57,403 nucleotides of DNA. Origin: Okeania sp. SIO3I5. GTDB lineage: Bacteria; Cyanobacteriota; Cyanobacteriia; Cyanobacteriales; Microcoleaceae. Below the pieces are notes generated by a model. It had not been told where the DNA came from and ran no database searches. It saw only the letters and a list, made by a program, of their open reading frames with translations. This document shows, piece by piece, positions 1 to 57,403 of this stretch. Each line of letters starts with the position of its first letter. The stretch's first letter is position 1. Position numbers and translations under genes: made by a program. Where the stretch lies: NCBI RefSeq assembly GCF_010672085.1, contig NZ_JAAHHT010000004.1:22691-80093 (forward strand), read 5' to 3'.

Positions 1-645
1 TATATTTTTTACTTTCTGGTTGTCAATAGATGATTAGAAAAAATTGAGGATAAGCAAGACTTGGTGCTATTATGAATAACCTCAAAAATCCCAGATATAA
101 ATATTTAATTTTGACCTTAGTTACTGGCTTAGTTATTCTTGTAATTACAGCTACAGTTATTAAGTCAATGACTCAGGCAACTCTTCCTCAAATAACTTTT
201 TTAGCAGAACTGAATTTTTCCACAGGTTGAAAATTTCCAAATACAGAAGTAGGGATAATTTGGGAAGTTTGGGAAGTTTGGGGAGTGTATGTTTTTGACT
301 TTCTAGTTGTAAATAGATGATTAGGAGAAGTCGAGGAGAAGGAAGACTTGGTGCTATTATGAATAATCTCAAAAATCAAAGATATAAATATTTAATTTTG
401 ACCTGAGTTACCTGTTTAGTTATTCTGATAATTACACCTACAGTTATTAAGTCAATGACTAAGGCAACTCTTCCTCAAATAACTTTTTTAGCAGAGGTGA
501 ATTTTCCCGCAGGTTTAAAATTTAAAAATACAGAAGTAGGGATAATTTGGGAAGTTTGGGAAGTTTGGGGAGTGTATGTTTTTGACTTTCTAGTTGTAAA
601 TAGATGATTAGGAGAAGTCGAGGAGAAGGAAGACTTGGTGCTATT
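1..645. repeat. Tandem triplication (287 bp) of the 5' end of the downstream gene
   Basis: The start region of the esterase-like-phytase gene occurs three times, with ATGs at 72, 359 and 646, exactly 287 bp apart. Copy 1 encodes 52 residues that match the true N-terminus (MNNLKNPRYKYLILTLVTG...) and then hits TGA at 228-230. Copy 2 has an in-frame TGA at 404-406 (codon 16). Only copy 3 runs on into a full gene. After the shared AATACAGAAGTAGG, copies 1 and 2 switch to a spacer (GATAATTTGGGAAGTTTGGG...) that leads into the next upstream region. No intact gene lies in 1-645. Confidence 0.93.
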
Positions 646-1770
646 ATGAATAATCTCAAAAATCAAAGATATAAATATTTAATTTTGACCTTAGTTACTT
701 GTTTAGTTATTCTGATAATTACACCTACAGTTATTAAGTCAATGACTAAGGCAACTCTTCCTCAAATAACTTTTTTAGCAGAGGTAAATTTTCCCACAGG
801 TTTAAAATTTAAAAATACAGAAGTAGGCGGACTTTCTGGCATAACCTATAATTTAGATAGACAAATTTATTATGCTATTTCTGATGACCGTAGTATTAAA
901 GCACCAGCGCGATTTTATACTCTGAAAATTGACCTAGAATCAGATAAAATTTCAGAGGAAACTGTAAGTTTTGTAGATGTCACAAATTTATTAAATGAAA
1001 CAGGTAAAATATTTCCTCCTTTGAGTATCGATCCAGAAGGAATTACTTTTAACGGAACTCATTTATTTATCTCTTCTGAAGGAGATAGAGAACGTCAAAT
1101 ACAACCATTTATTAAAGAATTTTCTCTGGAAGGTAAACAATTACGAAGTTTGCCAATTCCTGAAAAGTTTCTGATACAAACTGACAGTGGAATTAGAAAT
1201 AATCTCGCCTGGGAAAATTTAACTATTACTCCTAGCAAAAAATATCTCTTTACGGCTACAGAAAATGCTTTAGTTCAAGATGGTGCAGAAGCTAATATTT
1301 CTACTGGTAGTCCTTGTCGAATTTTACAGTATGATTTAATTTCTGGTCAGCCAGAAAAAGAGTTTCTATATATTACTGAACCTATTACTTCTACATCTAA
1401 TAATTTGGGTGGCTTTAAGACTAATGGTTTAGTAGAACTAATAGCTTTAGATGATACTCATCTTTTAAGTTTAGAAAGGTCTTTTACTCTAGACACTGGA
1501 AATACAATTAAATTATTTCAAGTTGATTTGTCAGATGCAGATAATATTCAACAAATTAATAGTCTAAACGGTAAATTTACTAATATTTCTCCCGTACAAA
1601 AAGAATTAGTTTTAGATTTGAGCAATTTAGAATTAATCTCAGATAATATTGAAGGAATGACCTTTGGCCCAGTATTGCCAGATGGTCGGCGATCGCTCAT
1701 TTTAGTCAGCGATAATAATTTTAATCTCCTACAAGTGACTCAGATTCTCATTTTCAGCAGCAACTTTTAA
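646..1770 (+). CDS. Esterase-like activity of phytase family protein, membrane-anchored or exported
   Basis: A 374-residue protein. I chose the ATG at 646 because the two upstream duplicate copies begin at the same MNNLKN; an upstream ATG at 604 would add 14 residues made of repeat DNA. Residues about 9-28 (YLILTLVTCLVILIITPTVI) form a hydrophobic segment that could be a signal anchor. The rest fits the phytase-like esterase family (PF13449 type): GGLSGITYN, YYAISDDRS, SIDPEGITF, NLAWENLTITP, NGLVELIAL, LLSLERSF, and a closing NIEGMTFGP...LILVSDNNF. Such proteins are predicted beta-propellers acting outside the cytoplasm on phosphate or other esters; the substrate cannot be read from sequence. 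The gene stands alone, with repeats on both sides. Confidence 0.8.
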   Translation: MNNLKNQRYKYLILTLVTCLVILIITPTVIKSMTKATLPQITFLAEVNFPTGLKFKNTEVGGLSGITYNLDRQIYYAISDDRSIKAPARFYTLKIDLESDKISEETVSFVDVTNLLNETGKIFPPLSIDPEGITFNGTHLFISSEGDRERQIQPFIKEFSLEGKQLRSLPIPEKFLIQTDSGIRNNLAWENLTITPSKKYLFTATENALVQDGAEANISTGSPCRILQYDLISGQPEKEFLYITEPITSTSNNLGGFKTNGLVELIALDDTHLLSLERSFTLDTGNTIKLFQVDLSDADNIQQINSLNGKFTNISPVQKELVLDLSNLELISDNIEGMTFGPVLPDGRRSLILVSDNNFNLLQVTQILIFSSNF

Positions 1771-2852: not shown

Positions 2853-5800
2853 ATGAGTGTTAGAGTTCGTCTGGCCCCAAGTCCAACAGGAAATTTACAT
2901 ATCGGTACAGCTAGAACTGCTGTATTTAACTGGTTATTTGCACGGAACCAGAAAGGAAAATTTATTCTGAGAATCGAAGATACAGATGTAGAGCGATCGC
3001 GTCCAGAGTATACAGACAATATTTTGGAGGGACTGAGATGGTTAGGATTAGAATGGGATGAGGGACCATCTTATCAGTCCCAACGTCTAGAACTATACGA
3101 GAAAGCAACTCAAGATTTACTAGACAAAGGATTAGCTTATCGGTGCTATTGTACAGCAGCAGAACTAGAGGAAATGCGGGAAGCTCAGAAAGCAAGAAAA
3201 GAAGCACCCCGCTACGATAACCGCCACCGCAACCTCACAGCTAAAGAACAAGCAGCTTTTGAAGCAGAAGGAAGACAACCAGTAATTCGCTTCAAAATAG
3301 ATGATGAGCGGATAATTACCTGGAACGATCTAGTCCGGGGGACAGTAACTTGGAAAGGTAGTGACTTGGGTGGGGATATGGTAATTTCCCGTGCAGCAGG
3401 GGGAGGGAAAGTAGGGCAACCTCTCTACAATATGGCAGTAGTAGTAGATGATATGGATATGAAAATTACCCATGTGATTCGGGGTGAAGATCATATTGCT
3501 AATACAGCTAAACAAATATTACTTTATGAAGCTTTAGAGGGGAAAGTTCCGAAATTTGGCCACACACCTCTAATTCTCAATACAGAAGGACGAAAATTGT
3601 CAAAACGGGATGGAGTAACTTCAATTTCTGATTTTCAAGAATTGGGTTTTACTCCCGAAGCACTGGCAAATTATATGTGCTTACTGGGATGGACGCCTCC
3701 AGATGCAACGGAAGAAATATTTACCCTACCAGAAGCAGGAGAAAAGTTTAGTTTTGAAAGGGTAAACAAAGCGGGAGCTAAGTTTGATTGGCAGAAGTTG
3801 GATTGGATAAATAGTCAATATTTACATAGTCTACCAGTAGAAAAGCTGACAGATAAATTAATTCCTATATGGCAAAAAGCAGGATATGAATTAGATCCAG
3901 AAGGCGATCGCTCTTGGTTAGAAGAACTAACAGCATTAATCGGACCTAGTTTGACTCGCCTCACAGATGCGGTGGAAATGAGTAAGTTATTCTTCTCTCC
4001 TACTGTAGAACTGGATGAAGCAGCGGCAGCACAAATGCAGAAAGAAGATTCTGTTAAATCTATTAATTCTATTCTAGAAGTGATAGATGCTGATGCACCT
4101 CTGGGAGCAAATGATGCACAGCAAACTATTAAAAAAGTTACTCAGAAAATTAAGGTAAAGAAAGGCATTGTGATGCGATCGCTAAGAGCATCCTTAACAG
4201 GTGCTATGCAAGGACCTGATTTAATTCAGTCGTGGTTACTGCTGCATCAGAAGGGTTTTGATATATTACGCTTCAAAAAATCTGTAGGTGAAGAAATTGA
4301 GGAAACGAATAAAACAGAGACTACTCCTAATCAGAGTGAAGGTACTGTTGTCCTAGAAACAACTCCAAAATCTCCTGCTTTATCAAAAGAAGAAACTAAG
4401 ACAACAAGATCGCCCGAACAAAAACAAGTAGCAGAGAACAAAGAGACAAAAACCTCAATACCCGAAACTCCGACTACTCCGACTACTGGTGCAGCAGCTA
4501 AGACTCCAGGGGAAGCAAAGGTAGAAAAAGAAAACCAAGTTTCCACACCACCAACTCCCACTATTGATGTAGCTGGCAAAACTACAGAACCGACTGTAAA
4601 AAAAGAGAGGAAAATTTCAGCATCACCATCATTAGTAACTCCAACTACTGGTGCAGGAGCTAAGACTCCAACTGAACCGAATGTTGCCAAACAGAGTCAA
4701 GTCTCAACACCAGCAGCAACTCCGACTGCTTCAACTACTGGTGCAACAGCTAAGACTCCAGCGGAACCAAAGGTAGAAAAACAGAGTCAAGTCTCAACAC
4801 CAGGAACTTCCACGACTCCGACTACTGGTGCAGCAGCTAAGACTCCAGTGGAACCAAAGGTAGGCAAAGAGAGTCAAGTTTCCACGCCAGTAGCAACTCC
4901 GATTACTCCGACTACTGGTGCAGTAGCTAAGACTCCAGGGGAAGCAAAAGTAGCAAAAGAAAACCAAGTTTCAACGCCAGCAGCAACTCCGACTACTCCG
5001 ACTACTGGTGCAGCAGCTAAGACTCCAACTGAACCGAATGTTGCCAAAGAGAGTCAAGTTTCCACGCCAACAGCAACTCCGACTGCTTCGACTACTGGTC
5101 CAGCAGCTAAGACTCCAACTGAACCGAAGGTAGCAAAAGAGAGTCAAGTCTCAACACCAAAAACTCCGACTACTGGTGCAGCAGTTAAGACTTCAACTGA
5201 ACCGAATGTTGCCAAAGAGAGTCAAGTTTCCACGCCAGTAGCAACTCCGATTACTCCGACTACTGGTGCAGCAGCTAAGACTCCAGGGGAAGCAAAAGTA
5301 GCAAAAGAAAACCAAGTTTCAACGCCAGCAGCAACTCTGACTACTGCGACTACTGGTGTAGCAGCTAAGACTCCAACTGAACCGAATGTTGCCAAACAGA
5401 GTCAAGTTTCCACGCCAACAGCAACTCCGACTGCTTCGACTACTGGTGCAGCAGCTAAGACTCCAACTGAACCGAATGTTGCCAAACAGAGTCAAGTCTC
5501 AACACCAAAAACTCCGACTACTGGTGCAGCAGTTAAGACTCCAACTGAACCGAAGGTAGCAAAAGAGAGTCAAGTTTCCACGCCAACAGCAATTCCGACT
5601 ACTGCGACTACTGGTGCAGCAGCTAAGACTTCAACTGAACCGAATGTTGCCAAAGAGAGTCAAGTTTCCACGCCAGTAGCAACTCCGATTACTCCGACTA
5701 CTGGTGCAACAGCTAAGACTCCAACTGAACCAAAGGTAGAAAAAGAAAGCAAAGTTTCAACGCCAGCAGCAATTCCGACTACTGCGACTACTGGTGCAGC

Positions 5801-6725
5801 AGCTAAGACTCCAACTGAACCGAATGTTGCCAAAGAGAGTCAAGTTTCCACGCCAACAGCAACTCCGACTGCTTCGACTACTGGTGCAGCAGCTAAGACT
5901 CCAACTGAACCGAATGTTGCCAAAGAGAGTCAAGTCTCAACACCAAAAACTCCGACTACTGGTGCAGCAGTTAAGACTCCAACTGAACCGAAGGTAGCAA
6001 AAGAGAGTCAAGTCTCAACACCAGAAACTCCGACTACTGCGACTACTGGTGCAGCAGCTAAGACTTCAACTGAACCGAATGTTGCCAAAGAGAGTCAAGT
6101 CTCAACACCAGGAACTTCGACAACTCCGACTACTGGTGCAGGAGATAAGACTCCAACTGAACCAAATTTAGGCAAAGAGAGTCAAGTTTCGACGCCAGCA
6201 GCAACTCCGATTATTGATGCAACAGGCAAAACTTCACCCGAACCGACTGTCGCAAAAGAGAGCCAAATTTCCACGCCAGCAGCAACAACTCCTACTACTA
6301 CTGGTACAGAAATCATAGAACAAAAAGTAGCGACTCTGGTTGAAACTTCCATTTTGGATGATCAACAACCTGTAGACACAGTAACTAACAAAACCATCGA
6401 TCTTGAACAACTCAATAGAATTAAAGAGCAATTGATCGATATCTTTTCTAACTTTCCTGAATACATTAGTCAATTCTATCAAGAATATCAAAGTCAGCTT
6501 AAAGTCGTTGGTTACGTGACATTAACAATATTAATTTTGACGTTAATTCTTAGTTTTCTCAAAGCTTTACAAGGAATTCCTATTCTATCAATTAGTTTTG
6601 AATTTATTGGAATGGGATATACAGTTTGGTTTGTTTACCGTTATTTGCTGCGGAAACCTAATCGACAAGAATTATTGGATAAAATTGAAAATATCAAATC
6701 AGAAATTGTTGGTAAGCAATCTTAA
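2853..6725 (+). CDS. gltX: Glutamyl-tRNA synthetase with giant repeat linker and C-terminal CAAD membrane domain
   Basis: A 1290-residue protein against about 480 for ordinary GluRS. Residues 1-478 are a complete class I enzyme that charges tRNA-Glu: HIGT at 16-19 (HIGH motif), GEDH at 211-214 and KLSKR at 248-252 (KMSKS motif). Residues about 479-1183 are a low-complexity Thr/Pro/Ala linker of about 21 units of 26-30 residues, with a core like [20 protein letters not shown]. Residues 1184-1290 ([10 protein letters not shown] ... KSEIVGKQS) fit the cyanobacterial aminoacyl-tRNA synthetase appended domain (CAAD): two hydrophobic segments ([19 protein letters not shown] and [18 protein letters not shown]) between amphipathic helices. 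CAAD is known to anchor some cyanobacterial synthetases to thylakoid membranes, so this enzyme is probably membrane-tethered on a long flexible arm. The reading frame stays open through all repeats. It follows tRNA-Asp by 200 bp but probably has its own promoter. Confidence 0.93.
4460..6310 (+). repeat. In-frame minisatellite coding for the GltX linker
   Basis: About 21 imperfect units of 78-90 bp, each coding for a 26- or 30-residue module around ACTACTGGTGCAGCAGCTAA. Length differences between units are multiples of three, so the frame is kept. Higher-order blocks recur: for example the modules ending in [25 protein letters not shown] and [11 protein letters not shown] come back in similar order, which suggests recent block duplications. 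Confidence 0.9.
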
Positions 6726-8169: not shown

Positions 8170-9036
8170 CTATTTGTGGGAATGTTGTGGTGCAGATTGC
8201 TTATGATAAGTATTTTTTACTATTGGTTGTGGTTGTGGTACAGATGGTACAGGATGAAGATTTTCGATTGTAGGTTGAGGTCGTGGTATCATAGGATTCA
8301 CAGGTGTAGGTGCTACAGGTTGAGGCGGAATATTTGCCACCATTGGTTGACGTCGGACTACGACAGCATTCACAGGTGTAGGTGCCACAGGTTGAGGCGG
8401 AATATTTGTTACCATTGGTTGACGTCGGACTACGATAGCATTCACAGGTGTAGGTGCCACAGGTTGACGTCGGACTACGATAGCATTCACAGGTATAGGT
8501 GCCACAGGTTGACGTCGGACTACGATAGCATTAACTGGTGTAGGTGCCACAGGTTGACGTCGGACTACAATAGCATTCACTGGTGTAGGTGCCACAGGTT
8601 GACGTCGGACTACGATAGCATTAACTGGTGTAGGTAGTTGGAGGTTGTTAACTTCTGGAATGCCGAATTTATTAGTTTTAGTAGTTTTCCATTGATGAGA
8701 AAAATTTGCACCTTGATATTTAGTTCCAACAACATTATAATTATTTTTTAACTGGGAATTTTGAGAAGTATTAATCTCTTGATTTTGGGAGAGAATAAAA
8801 TAATTCCGATGCTTTGACTCTAAGTTATTTTTATTGACATTATAACTTTGTTGTGATATGTTTTGAGTAGACAGTTGAAGTGTATTTACTAGAGATAAAT
8901 TATCTCTGTCGTGACTGATAGCAAAACTTACTCTTGGCTGAACTAATGTACCAATCGTATATGTTGTAGCAATTAGAGGAACTCCTCCTAGTAAAGCCTT
9001 GAATCTGGTAAGGACTGATTTTAATAAAATTTTCAT
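8170..9036 (-). CDS. Exported or anchored Pro/Val/Arg repeat protein, unknown function
   Basis: A 288-residue protein. Residues 1-40 (MKILLKSVLTRFKALLGG... then ATTYTIGTLV...) look like a weak signal peptide or membrane anchor. Residues about 45-135 are Asn/Gln/Ser-rich and probably unstructured. From about 136 to 250 a 15-residue unit, TPVNAIVVRRQPVAP, is repeated: five close copies, then two longer copies carrying MVTNIPPQP or MVANIPPQP, then a degenerate NPMIPRPQP copy. The tail is Pro/Gln/His-rich. The 45-bp DNA unit shows little divergence, so the array is young or kept similar by recombination. No catalytic motif is visible. A structural or binding role outside the cell is possible but not shown. 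Confidence 0.65.
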   Translation of the reverse strand: MKILLKSVLTRFKALLGGVPLIATTYTIGTLVQPRVSFAISHDRDNLSLVNTLQLSTQNISQQSYNVNKNNLESKHRNYFILSQNQEINTSQNSQLKNNYNVVGTKYQGANFSHQWKTTKTNKFGIPEVNNLQLPTPVNAIVVRRQPVAPTPVNAIVVRRQPVAPTPVNAIVVRRQPVAPIPVNAIVVRRQPVAPTPVNAIVVRRQPMVTNIPPQPVAPTPVNAVVVRRQPMVANIPPQPVAPTPVNPMIPRPQPTIENLHPVPSVPQPQPIVKNTYHKQSAPQHSHK

Positions 9037-32703: not shown

Positions 32704-33070
32704 AGGGAACAGCGAACAGGGAACAGGGAACAGGGAACAGGGAACAGGGAACAGGGAACAGGGAACAGGGAACAGGGAACAGGGAACAGGGAACAGGGAA
32801 CAGGGGATGAGGAGGATGGGGAGGATGGGGAGGATGGGGAGGATGGGGAGGATGGGGAGGATGGGGAGGATGGGGAGGATGGGGAGGATGGGGAGGATGG
32901 GGAGGATGAGGAGGATGAGGAGGATGGGGATACGTAAGCTGCATGAATAAAAGTGGACTTTTCTGCCACACCTCCCACACCTCCCACACTTCCCACACTT
33001 CCCACACTTCCCACACTTCCCACACTTCCCACACTTCCCACACTTCCCACACTTCCCACACTTCCCCACC
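32704..33070. repeat. Three adjoining minisatellites
   Basis: About 32704-32805: a 7-bp unit GGGAACA, roughly 14 copies. About 32806-32931: a 9-bp unit GGAGGATGG. About 32967-33070: a 9-bp unit CTTCCCACA. All reading frames are open through these arrays, so the long open frames here are artefacts. The remainder of 32519-33634 holds an R6-like end at about 33120-33182, TTTTGACTTTTGATTTTTAA words near 33290 and no gene. Confidence 0.9.
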
Positions 33071-56423: not shown

Positions 56424-57278
56424 ATGTTGAAAAAATTATCCTTGATTTCTAAATCTTCCTATCGTCGAATATCATATCCTTTAATATCTCTAATGGTTGC
56501 TGCTGGTTTATGTGCAGGTACAGCATCCCCCACTCAAGCTATTCCCTGGAGAGAATTAATTTTCCAGGGTGTTCAAATGATGTCAATTTCTAACCTGTCT
56601 GACGATCAAGAAGTTGAACTAGGTAAACAAATTAATCAACAGTTATTGAGAAGCGGAGATGTTAAACTTTATGGCGATCGCGAAGCAAACGAATATATTA
56701 CTAGAATTGGGGAAAGATTAGTTGCAGCAAGTCCTCGCTCGGATATTCCTTATACTTTTCAGGTAGTCGAGGATGATAGTATAAATGCTTTTGCAACTAT
56801 GGGAGGGTTTGTTTATATACATACTGGTTTAATGAAAGCTGCCGATAATGAAGCAGAATTAGCTAGTGTTGTTTCCCACGAAATTGCTCATATTACTGAA
56901 CGCCATGCAGTGAAACAATTACGTCAAACATTATTAGCACAGGGTTTAGCTACTGCAGCAGGTGTAGATGAGAGTGTGGCAGTTCAAGTGGGGGTAGAAT
57001 TAGCATTACGTCGCCCCAAAAGTAGGCGCGCAGAATTTGAAGCGGATCAAGTTGGTATTGAAACCTTGGGAAGAGCGGGATATGCTCAATCTGGTGCAAT
57101 TACATTTATGCAAAAATTGCTGAGAAAAAATTCGCCACCATCTTTTCTTAGCACTCATCCAGCAACATCCGCGCGAATTTCTCAGATGAAACAAATGGTT
57201 GATCCTGAACTCGCTTACAATGGTGATGGTTTGGATGAGAGACGTTATCAGGTAATTGTCAGTAGGTTAGTTCCGTAG
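56424..57278 (+). CDS. M48-family zinc metalloprotease (Oma1/BepA-like), exported or membrane-bound
   Basis: A 284-residue protein. Residues 1-39 are a Sec signal peptide (RRISYPLISLMVAAGLCAGTA, probable cleavage near TQA-IP). The zinc site is HEIAH at 152-156, with the third ligand Glu204 in EFEAD. Conserved neighbours are DSINAFATMGGFVYIHTGLM before it and FLSTHPATSARISQMKQM after it, as in M48C proteases such as Oma1 and the catalytic part of BepA. It is probably a periplasmic quality-control protease. No TPR extension is present. The stop codon TAG is directly followed by a minisatellite. Confidence 0.92.
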   Translation: MLKKLSLISKSSYRRISYPLISLMVAAGLCAGTASPTQAIPWRELIFQGVQMMSISNLSDDQEVELGKQINQQLLRSGDVKLYGDREANEYITRIGERLVAASPRSDIPYTFQVVEDDSINAFATMGGFVYIHTGLMKAADNEAELASVVSHEIAHITERHAVKQLRQTLLAQGLATAAGVDESVAVQVGVELALRRPKSRRAEFEADQVGIETLGRAGYAQSGAITFMQKLLRKNSPPSFLSTHPATSARISQMKQMVDPELAYNGDGLDERRYQVIVSRLVP

Positions 57279-57403
57279 TCGGGGAGTCGGGGAGTCGGGG
57301 AGTCGGGGAGTCGGGGAGTCGGGGAGTCGGGGAGTCGGGGAGTCGGGGAGTCGGGGAGTCGGGGAGTCGGGGAGTCGGGGAGTCGGGGAGTCGGGGAGTC
57401 GGG
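57279..57403. repeat. 8-bp TCGGGGAG minisatellite, cut by the window end
   Basis: At least 15 perfect copies of the 8-bp unit start right after the stop codon of the protease gene and continue to the last base. The homogeneity points to recent expansion. Confidence 0.97.

Follow-up and report, generated by a model that had tools for sequence, protein, structure and literature searches.

The glutamyl-tRNA synthetase (GluRS) encoded in the window (the whole stretch of 57,403 nucleotides that was analysed) is an extreme representative of an already known type of membrane-anchored enzyme. Judged from its domains, the gene is a CAAD-bearing aminoacyl-tRNA synthetase of the GluRS-C kind, with CAAD and synthetase in a single chain; the kind of protein is known, since CAAD-GluRS fusions have already been published (PMC4893482). 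What is new here is that the arm between the two parts, at 722 residues, was the longest of the 46 distinct fused linkers measured. Judged by the GluRS nearest to its own, the host is a member of the Trichodesmium/Okeania clade. We consider it probable that the gene represents a gltX fused to its curT neighbour, with a product tethered to the thylakoid and an arm the length of which is loosely selected.

Domain organisation of the fused gene

One unbroken open reading frame on the forward strand (2853-6725, 1290 residues by ORF translation) encoded a GluRS, a repetitive arm and a CAAD domain. The catalytic and anticodon-binding domains of GluRS occupied residues 1-480 (2853-4292, +; PF00749, PF19269 and TIGR00464), with Pfam matches to tRNA-synt_1c at residues 3-318 (E 2.6e-102) and to Anticodon_2 at residues 334-464 (E 1e-16). 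The equivalog model gltX_bact (NCBIfam TIGR00464) matched residues 3-475 with 584.7 bits against a cut-off of 289.95, and the best solved-structure match of the GluRS part was 2cfo (E 8.3e-200). The low-complexity arm (residues 481-1202; 4293-6458, +), recognised by its composition and units, contained 21 units arrayed in frame, each 26-30 residues long (residues 544-1148; 4482-6296, +), which were delimited by 22 anchors and also found by Tandem Repeats Finder. The CAAD/CURT1 membrane domain (residues 1203-1287; 6459-6713, +) matched PF14159 with an E-value of 1.7e-26 and 92.3 bits (cut-off 30.7). A preliminary description of this DNA had claimed a complete GluRS, about 21 repeats and a C-terminal CAAD domain in one frame of 1290 residues, joined by a linker longer than the enzyme; domains and units were confirmed, and the arm exceeded the GluRS part by 722 to 480 residues. 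The same description had let the anchor start at residue 1184, where the presence of CAAD was borne out but the Pfam match began 19 residues later.

The published GluRS-C of cyanobacteria (PMC4893482) resembles the window protein in combining GluRS and CAAD in one chain without a GluRS paralog. It differs in that the window arm comprises 722 residues and 21 units, whereas neither 'linker' nor 'spacer' occurs anywhere in the main text of that paper. No published account of a GluRS-C linker or its repeats was found at the level of titles and abstract openings. ValRS-C of Anabaena PCC 7120 and LeuRS-C of Lyngbya PCC 8106 are likewise class I synthetases with a CAAD domain (PMC4893482); in these the domain is inserted internally, whereas that of the window protein is C-terminal and follows the long arm. 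The thylakoid curvature proteins CURT1/CurT are homologous to CAAD according to the same source, the window CAAD being fused to GluRS.

The membrane anchor

In an AlphaFold2 model of residues 1186-1290 (mean pLDDT 83.1, pTM 0.40), helices were predicted at model residues 2-55, 58-81 and 86-101, the first of which already spans nearly all of the stretch 1184-1203. Hydropathy showed one broad peak, not two, with hydrophobic windows covering residues 1214-1249. No solved structure was matched by the CAAD domain, either by sequence at E<=0.01 or by Foldseek at E<=10.

Membrane localisation has been reported for ValRS-C and LeuRS-C, while for GluRS-C and others it was assumed and not demonstrated (PMC4893482); no demonstration for GluRS-C was found in the literature covered. 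The same source describes CAAD as directing ValRS to thylakoids and, even in E. coli, to membranes, with catalysis little affected when the domain is removed. The enzyme had been described as held at the thylakoid by a flexible arm. The tethering part of this claim fared well, in that attachment of the window GluRS to a membrane through CAAD is well supported by the homology of that domain; a position at the thylakoid rather than the plasma membrane is suggested by analogy, and a disordered, flexible arm by amino acid composition, from which disorder was read rather than from a dedicated predictor. Under the favoured reading, the CAAD hairpin would be embedded in the thylakoid membrane, and a disordered arm of nearly neutral charge would carry the GluRS head in the cytoplasm. 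By simple polymer formulas, an arm of 722 residues has a contour length of about 260 nm and a coil end-to-end distance of about 14-26 nm, and one of 62 residues about 6 nm; the reach of the arm could be enough for work around membrane-bound ribosomes.

Composition and integrity of the repeat array

The arm was dominated by Thr (169 residues), Ala (98), Pro (91), Lys (67) and Glu (59). Basic residues numbered 70 and acidic ones 67, and there was not a single Met, Cys, His, Trp or Tyr. Tandem Repeats Finder reported a period of 90 bp in 18.0 copies with 81% matches (4638-6210), together with longer periods of 348 bp (84%) and 438 bp (86%), as expected from duplicated blocks of four or five units. 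Repeat cover of the arm was 0.86, whereas 3 shuffled versions of it gave 0.0. Among 18 unit cores, pN/pS was 0.38 (jackknife 0.35-0.39), and third codon positions were 2.6 times as variable as first positions. This ratio and the frame kept throughout make it very probable that the array is translated and that its peptide is under constraint. The constraint on the units could mean that the arm has a sequence-specific role and is not a passive tether.

A misassembled or inflated array could in principle produce an arm of this size, and the assembly is a draft of 562 contigs; N gaps in the arm in 5 of 105 distinct rows of the comparison below also indicate that such arms are hard to assemble. A collapse of repeats would, however, shorten an array and not lengthen it, the longest exact repeat within the arm DNA was 101 bp, and the 90-bp units were only 81% alike, with the reading frame maintained across all 21 of them. 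A 451-base piece of the array gave 6 matches in the 10.5-Mb assembly, all at this locus, and array DNA was thus found nowhere else with this query; together with the 101-bp limit on exact repeats, this makes a chimeric array unlikely. Long arms also occurred elsewhere, with 468 residues in the sister G002 and 303-411 residues in four Okeania. We therefore regard an artefact of assembly as very improbable. No frameshift was present in the region 4.4-6.3 kb, where a split of the gene could have been suspected, and a frameshift artefact was rejected as unlikely in view of the same evidence and the pN/pS value.

Genome context and tRNA charging

Exactly one match to the gltX model was found in the assembly, that of the window gene; a second GluRS copy was looked for with this model and rejected. 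The window GluRS is, on the evidence of being the sole match, probably active. A gatB gene was present (657.2 bits), and no GlnRS scored above cut-off in the assembly, where the only glnS match was the window GluRS itself, below cut-off. In the established indirect route, one GluRS serves tRNA-Glu and, through GatCAB, tRNA-Gln. With one GluRS, gatB and no GlnRS, the window enzyme should charge both tRNAs. The only hemA match in the assembly scored below cut-off and covered 48 codons at the end of a contig (G000:C177:4-147, L194); this fragment is unusable for an argument about tetrapyrroles.

Two further CAAD genes were detected in the assembly, a stand-alone frame of 144 residues and an IleRS (TIGR00392, 1028.1 bits). 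In this IleRS-C, CAAD lay internally at residues 930-1010, between the anticodon domain (to 859) and the zinc finger (1116), and there was no long repetitive arm; it shares the internal plan of ValRS-C and LeuRS-C, unlike the window GluRS. The joint presence of GluRS-C and IleRS-C in a genome has been described before (PMC4893482).

Linker lengths and gene states among relatives

A total of 138 loci with a GluRS were classed, from 58 of 60 chosen regions (a GluRS was absent from L102 and L103) and from the best 80 of 561 matches. After removal of 34 rows with duplicate (identical) GluRS, 104 rows remained, which with the window made 105 distinct rows. Of these, 46 were fused and 5 had an arm interrupted by an N gap; gltX and a CAAD gene lay side by side in 9, CAAD was absent from the vicinity in 36, and 9 were left unassigned at contig edges. 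Most of the 60 chosen regions had been picked for a long GluRS frame, and the share of fused genes is therefore no measure of prevalence. The nearest GluRS in the set, which included the best 80 of 561, was that of Okeania sp. SIO2F4 (93% identical).

The 46 distinct fused linkers ranged from 62 to 722 residues (median 174.5). The window linker (722) was followed by linkers of 468, 411, 386, 365 and 303 residues, and only one of the 46, its own, reached the 480 residues of the enzyme. The linker of 468 residues (L053, from G002) was counted although its GluRS frame was in two pieces with one unknown arm residue, and the partial GluRS was used in the tree. Measured from stop to stop, the longest other frame among the matches listed from 388 genomes of the order was 987 residues, against 1299 in the window. 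At the other end, short linkers of 62-76 residues occurred in 11 of the 46 fused genes, so that length does not seem to be required; great length is for this reason seen as repeat expansion under weak length constraint and not as an adaptation. The extreme length of the window arm would thus mostly reflect repeat expansion in a permissive, composition-constrained linker, with length only loosely selected.

Aromatic residues, Cys, Met and His together made up 0-8% of each of the 46 linkers, and 27 had a repeat cover above 0.3 and above that of their own shuffles. The content of Lys and Arg was 0.10-0.16 in the 8 linkers of the Trichodesmium/Okeania clade, compared to 0.01-0.07 in the other 38. 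These figures bear on the idea of a multivalent scaffold, in which the 21 similar Lys/Glu/Thr/Pro units would bind a partner (ribosome, tRNA, GatCAB or tetrapyrrole enzymes) or condense at the surface of the membrane. The constraint on the unit peptide (pN/pS 0.38) and the occurrence of repeats both in fused linkers (27 of 46) and in adjacent CAAD genes (7 of 9) are in line with such a role; units judged by eye, however, differed between lineages, the charged residues above set 8 linkers apart from the other 38, and repeat-free arms of 62-76 residues exist. We find a scaffold function doubtful.

On a GluRS tree built by a quick method with SH-aLRT support only, the states fused, side by side and none required at least 6 changes, a count from which the 9 contig-edge rows were excluded, in which the 5 N-gapped rows were assumed to be fused, and in which gain and loss are indistinguishable.

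Origin, turnover and loss of the arm

A CAAD gene followed gltX in Planktothrix, Arthrospira, Oscillatoriales USR001 and further relatives (9 of 105 distinct rows). In the five junctions inspected (L178, L125, L085, L128 and L106), the first plausible start lay about 20 bases past the gltX stop. A repetitive stretch preceded the CAAD domain in 7 of the 9 downstream frames, as in the window fusion, with a repeat cover of 0.37-0.69 (0.0 in shuffles); the cover was 0.0 in L125 and L085. Since repeats stand before the domain in 7 of 9 separate genes, the arm probably belonged to the CurT-like partner and predates the fusion, and was not made for GluRS. An origin of GluRS-C by fusion of neighbouring gltX and curt1 genes has already been proposed (PMC4893482); the probable existence of the arm before the fusion is new here. 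In the reading preferred above, gltX would have been joined to the neighbouring curT and the arm of CurT turned into a linker. The row L085 sits among fused relatives on the GluRS tree, and may therefore be a split fusion rather than the ancestral state.

Between the window, G002 and G003, the flanks of the array aligned well on both sides, and for 32 of 33 unit cores the nearest neighbour was in the same genome. This turnover within genomes, along with the range of 62-722 residues between species, agrees with the earlier suggestion that the length of the arm varies by gain and loss of units. For the window compared to G003 and G002, respectively, dN/dS was 0.11 and 0.12 in GluRS, 0.44 and 0.52 in the N-terminal flank of the linker, and 0.31 and 0.32 in CAAD. 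Different lineages had different arm units, as judged by eye. Linkers remained poor in aromatic residues, Cys, Met and His despite changes in length and charge, and selection thus appears to act on the character of the linker rather than on its exact sequence or length.

The arm was absent in L117, from the metagenome-assembled Trichodesmium sp. MAG_R03 (about 4960-5400), where the GluRS frame stopped about 20 residues past the enzyme and, with synteny kept, was closely followed by the gene that is normally downstream of CAAD. No CAAD frame was found near this locus, although CAAD seeds gave weak tblastn matches there (best E 0.031); G005, taken as the genome of L117, had 2 CAAD matches, both on other contigs. 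Going by this metagenome-assembled genome, the tether (arm and anchor) seems to be dispensable in that lineage.

A candidate internal start in Microcoleus-type fusions

In 22 Microcoleus-type fusions (L060, L064, L065, L069, L070, L074, L076, L084, L119, L121, L122, L130, L135, L137, L139, L143, L146, L149, L152, L155, L157 and L161), an ATG in the linker lay within 16 informative codons without synonymous change, the next longest run being 6 (711 informative codons). A stop codon just upstream of this ATG in L085 left a CAAD frame able to start there. These observations suggest a retained internal translation start in Microcoleus-type fusions, or another nucleotide-level element; the former is the simpler interpretation, though not a firm one. 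A GGAG was located only 2 bases ahead of the conserved ATG, a spacing that is short for a canonical site, and a Shine-Dalgarno scan flagged 3 of 45 linkers and left this ATG unflagged; the case for an internal start is thus carried by the synonymous constraint and by the split gene L085, not by a good ribosome-binding site. No outlier run was seen in the Trichodesmium/Okeania set (8 sequences), where the longest was 10, in the CAAD domain, and the next 8. In the fused genes L138, L097 and L099, AGGAGG preceded an ATG at linker residue 8, a further candidate internal start.

An internal start would fit an explanation in which protease cleavage of the arm, or internal initiation, turns the fusion into a soluble GluRS plus an unattached CurT-like protein, and in which the fusion exists for co-expression and not for tethering. 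The conserved Microcoleus-type ATG and the stop in L085 point in this direction, as does the fact that the GluRS and CAAD parts are separate adjacent genes in 9 of 105 distinct rows, and a long unstructured arm is protease-prone, which would favour processing. In the window, on the other hand, the first Met after residue 481 was Met 1254 and the arm contained no ATG, so that internal initiation there would need another start codon. In Anabaena, moreover, ValRS-C with its CAAD domain functions in the membrane fraction (PMC4893482). On balance, we judge processing to be an unlikely explanation.

A tethered enzyme remains our preferred reading for the window, and a wider reading that joins both is put forward tentatively, as one that may well prove wrong. 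In it, gltX and a repeat-armed curT neighbour would have fused on several occasions, and perhaps also come apart; Microcoleus-type genes, keeping an internal translation start, would yield a tethered GluRS and, in addition, a free protein of the CurT type; and the enzyme of the window gene, which is without an ATG in the arm, would perform all charging of tRNA-Glu (and indirectly of tRNA-Gln), and hence sustain chlorophyll and haem supply, on an arm evolving by gain and loss of units. The relatives offer a natural series, from no arm or anchor (the Trichodesmium metagenome-assembled genome) to fused arms of 62-722 residues, together with side-by-side genes and a possible two-product version, by which the reason for anchoring certain cyanobacterial synthetases becomes a comparison that can be tested in the laboratory. 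The series also suggests that the linker of an essential enzyme can be rebuilt from repeat units that differ between lineages, and we consider the origin, turnover and loss of the arm, along with the Microcoleus internal ATG, to be worth more than its length itself.

Other repeats in the window

A second repeat-expanded frame was located 1.4 kb downstream of the fusion gene, on the reverse strand (8170-9036, -), with units like VAPTPVNAIVVRRQP and periods of 45 and 72 bp; it had no Pfam match at E<=0.001. Repeats resembling those of this frame were present near the same place in L007 and L010. At the start of the window (1-827), a 287-bp tandem repeat (2.9 copies, 94%) extended into the start of a phytase-like gene (604-1770). 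Many short arrays with units of 7, 8 and 9 bp (for example, 32704-33066 and 57277-57403) were among the 56 Tandem Repeats Finder rows of the window.
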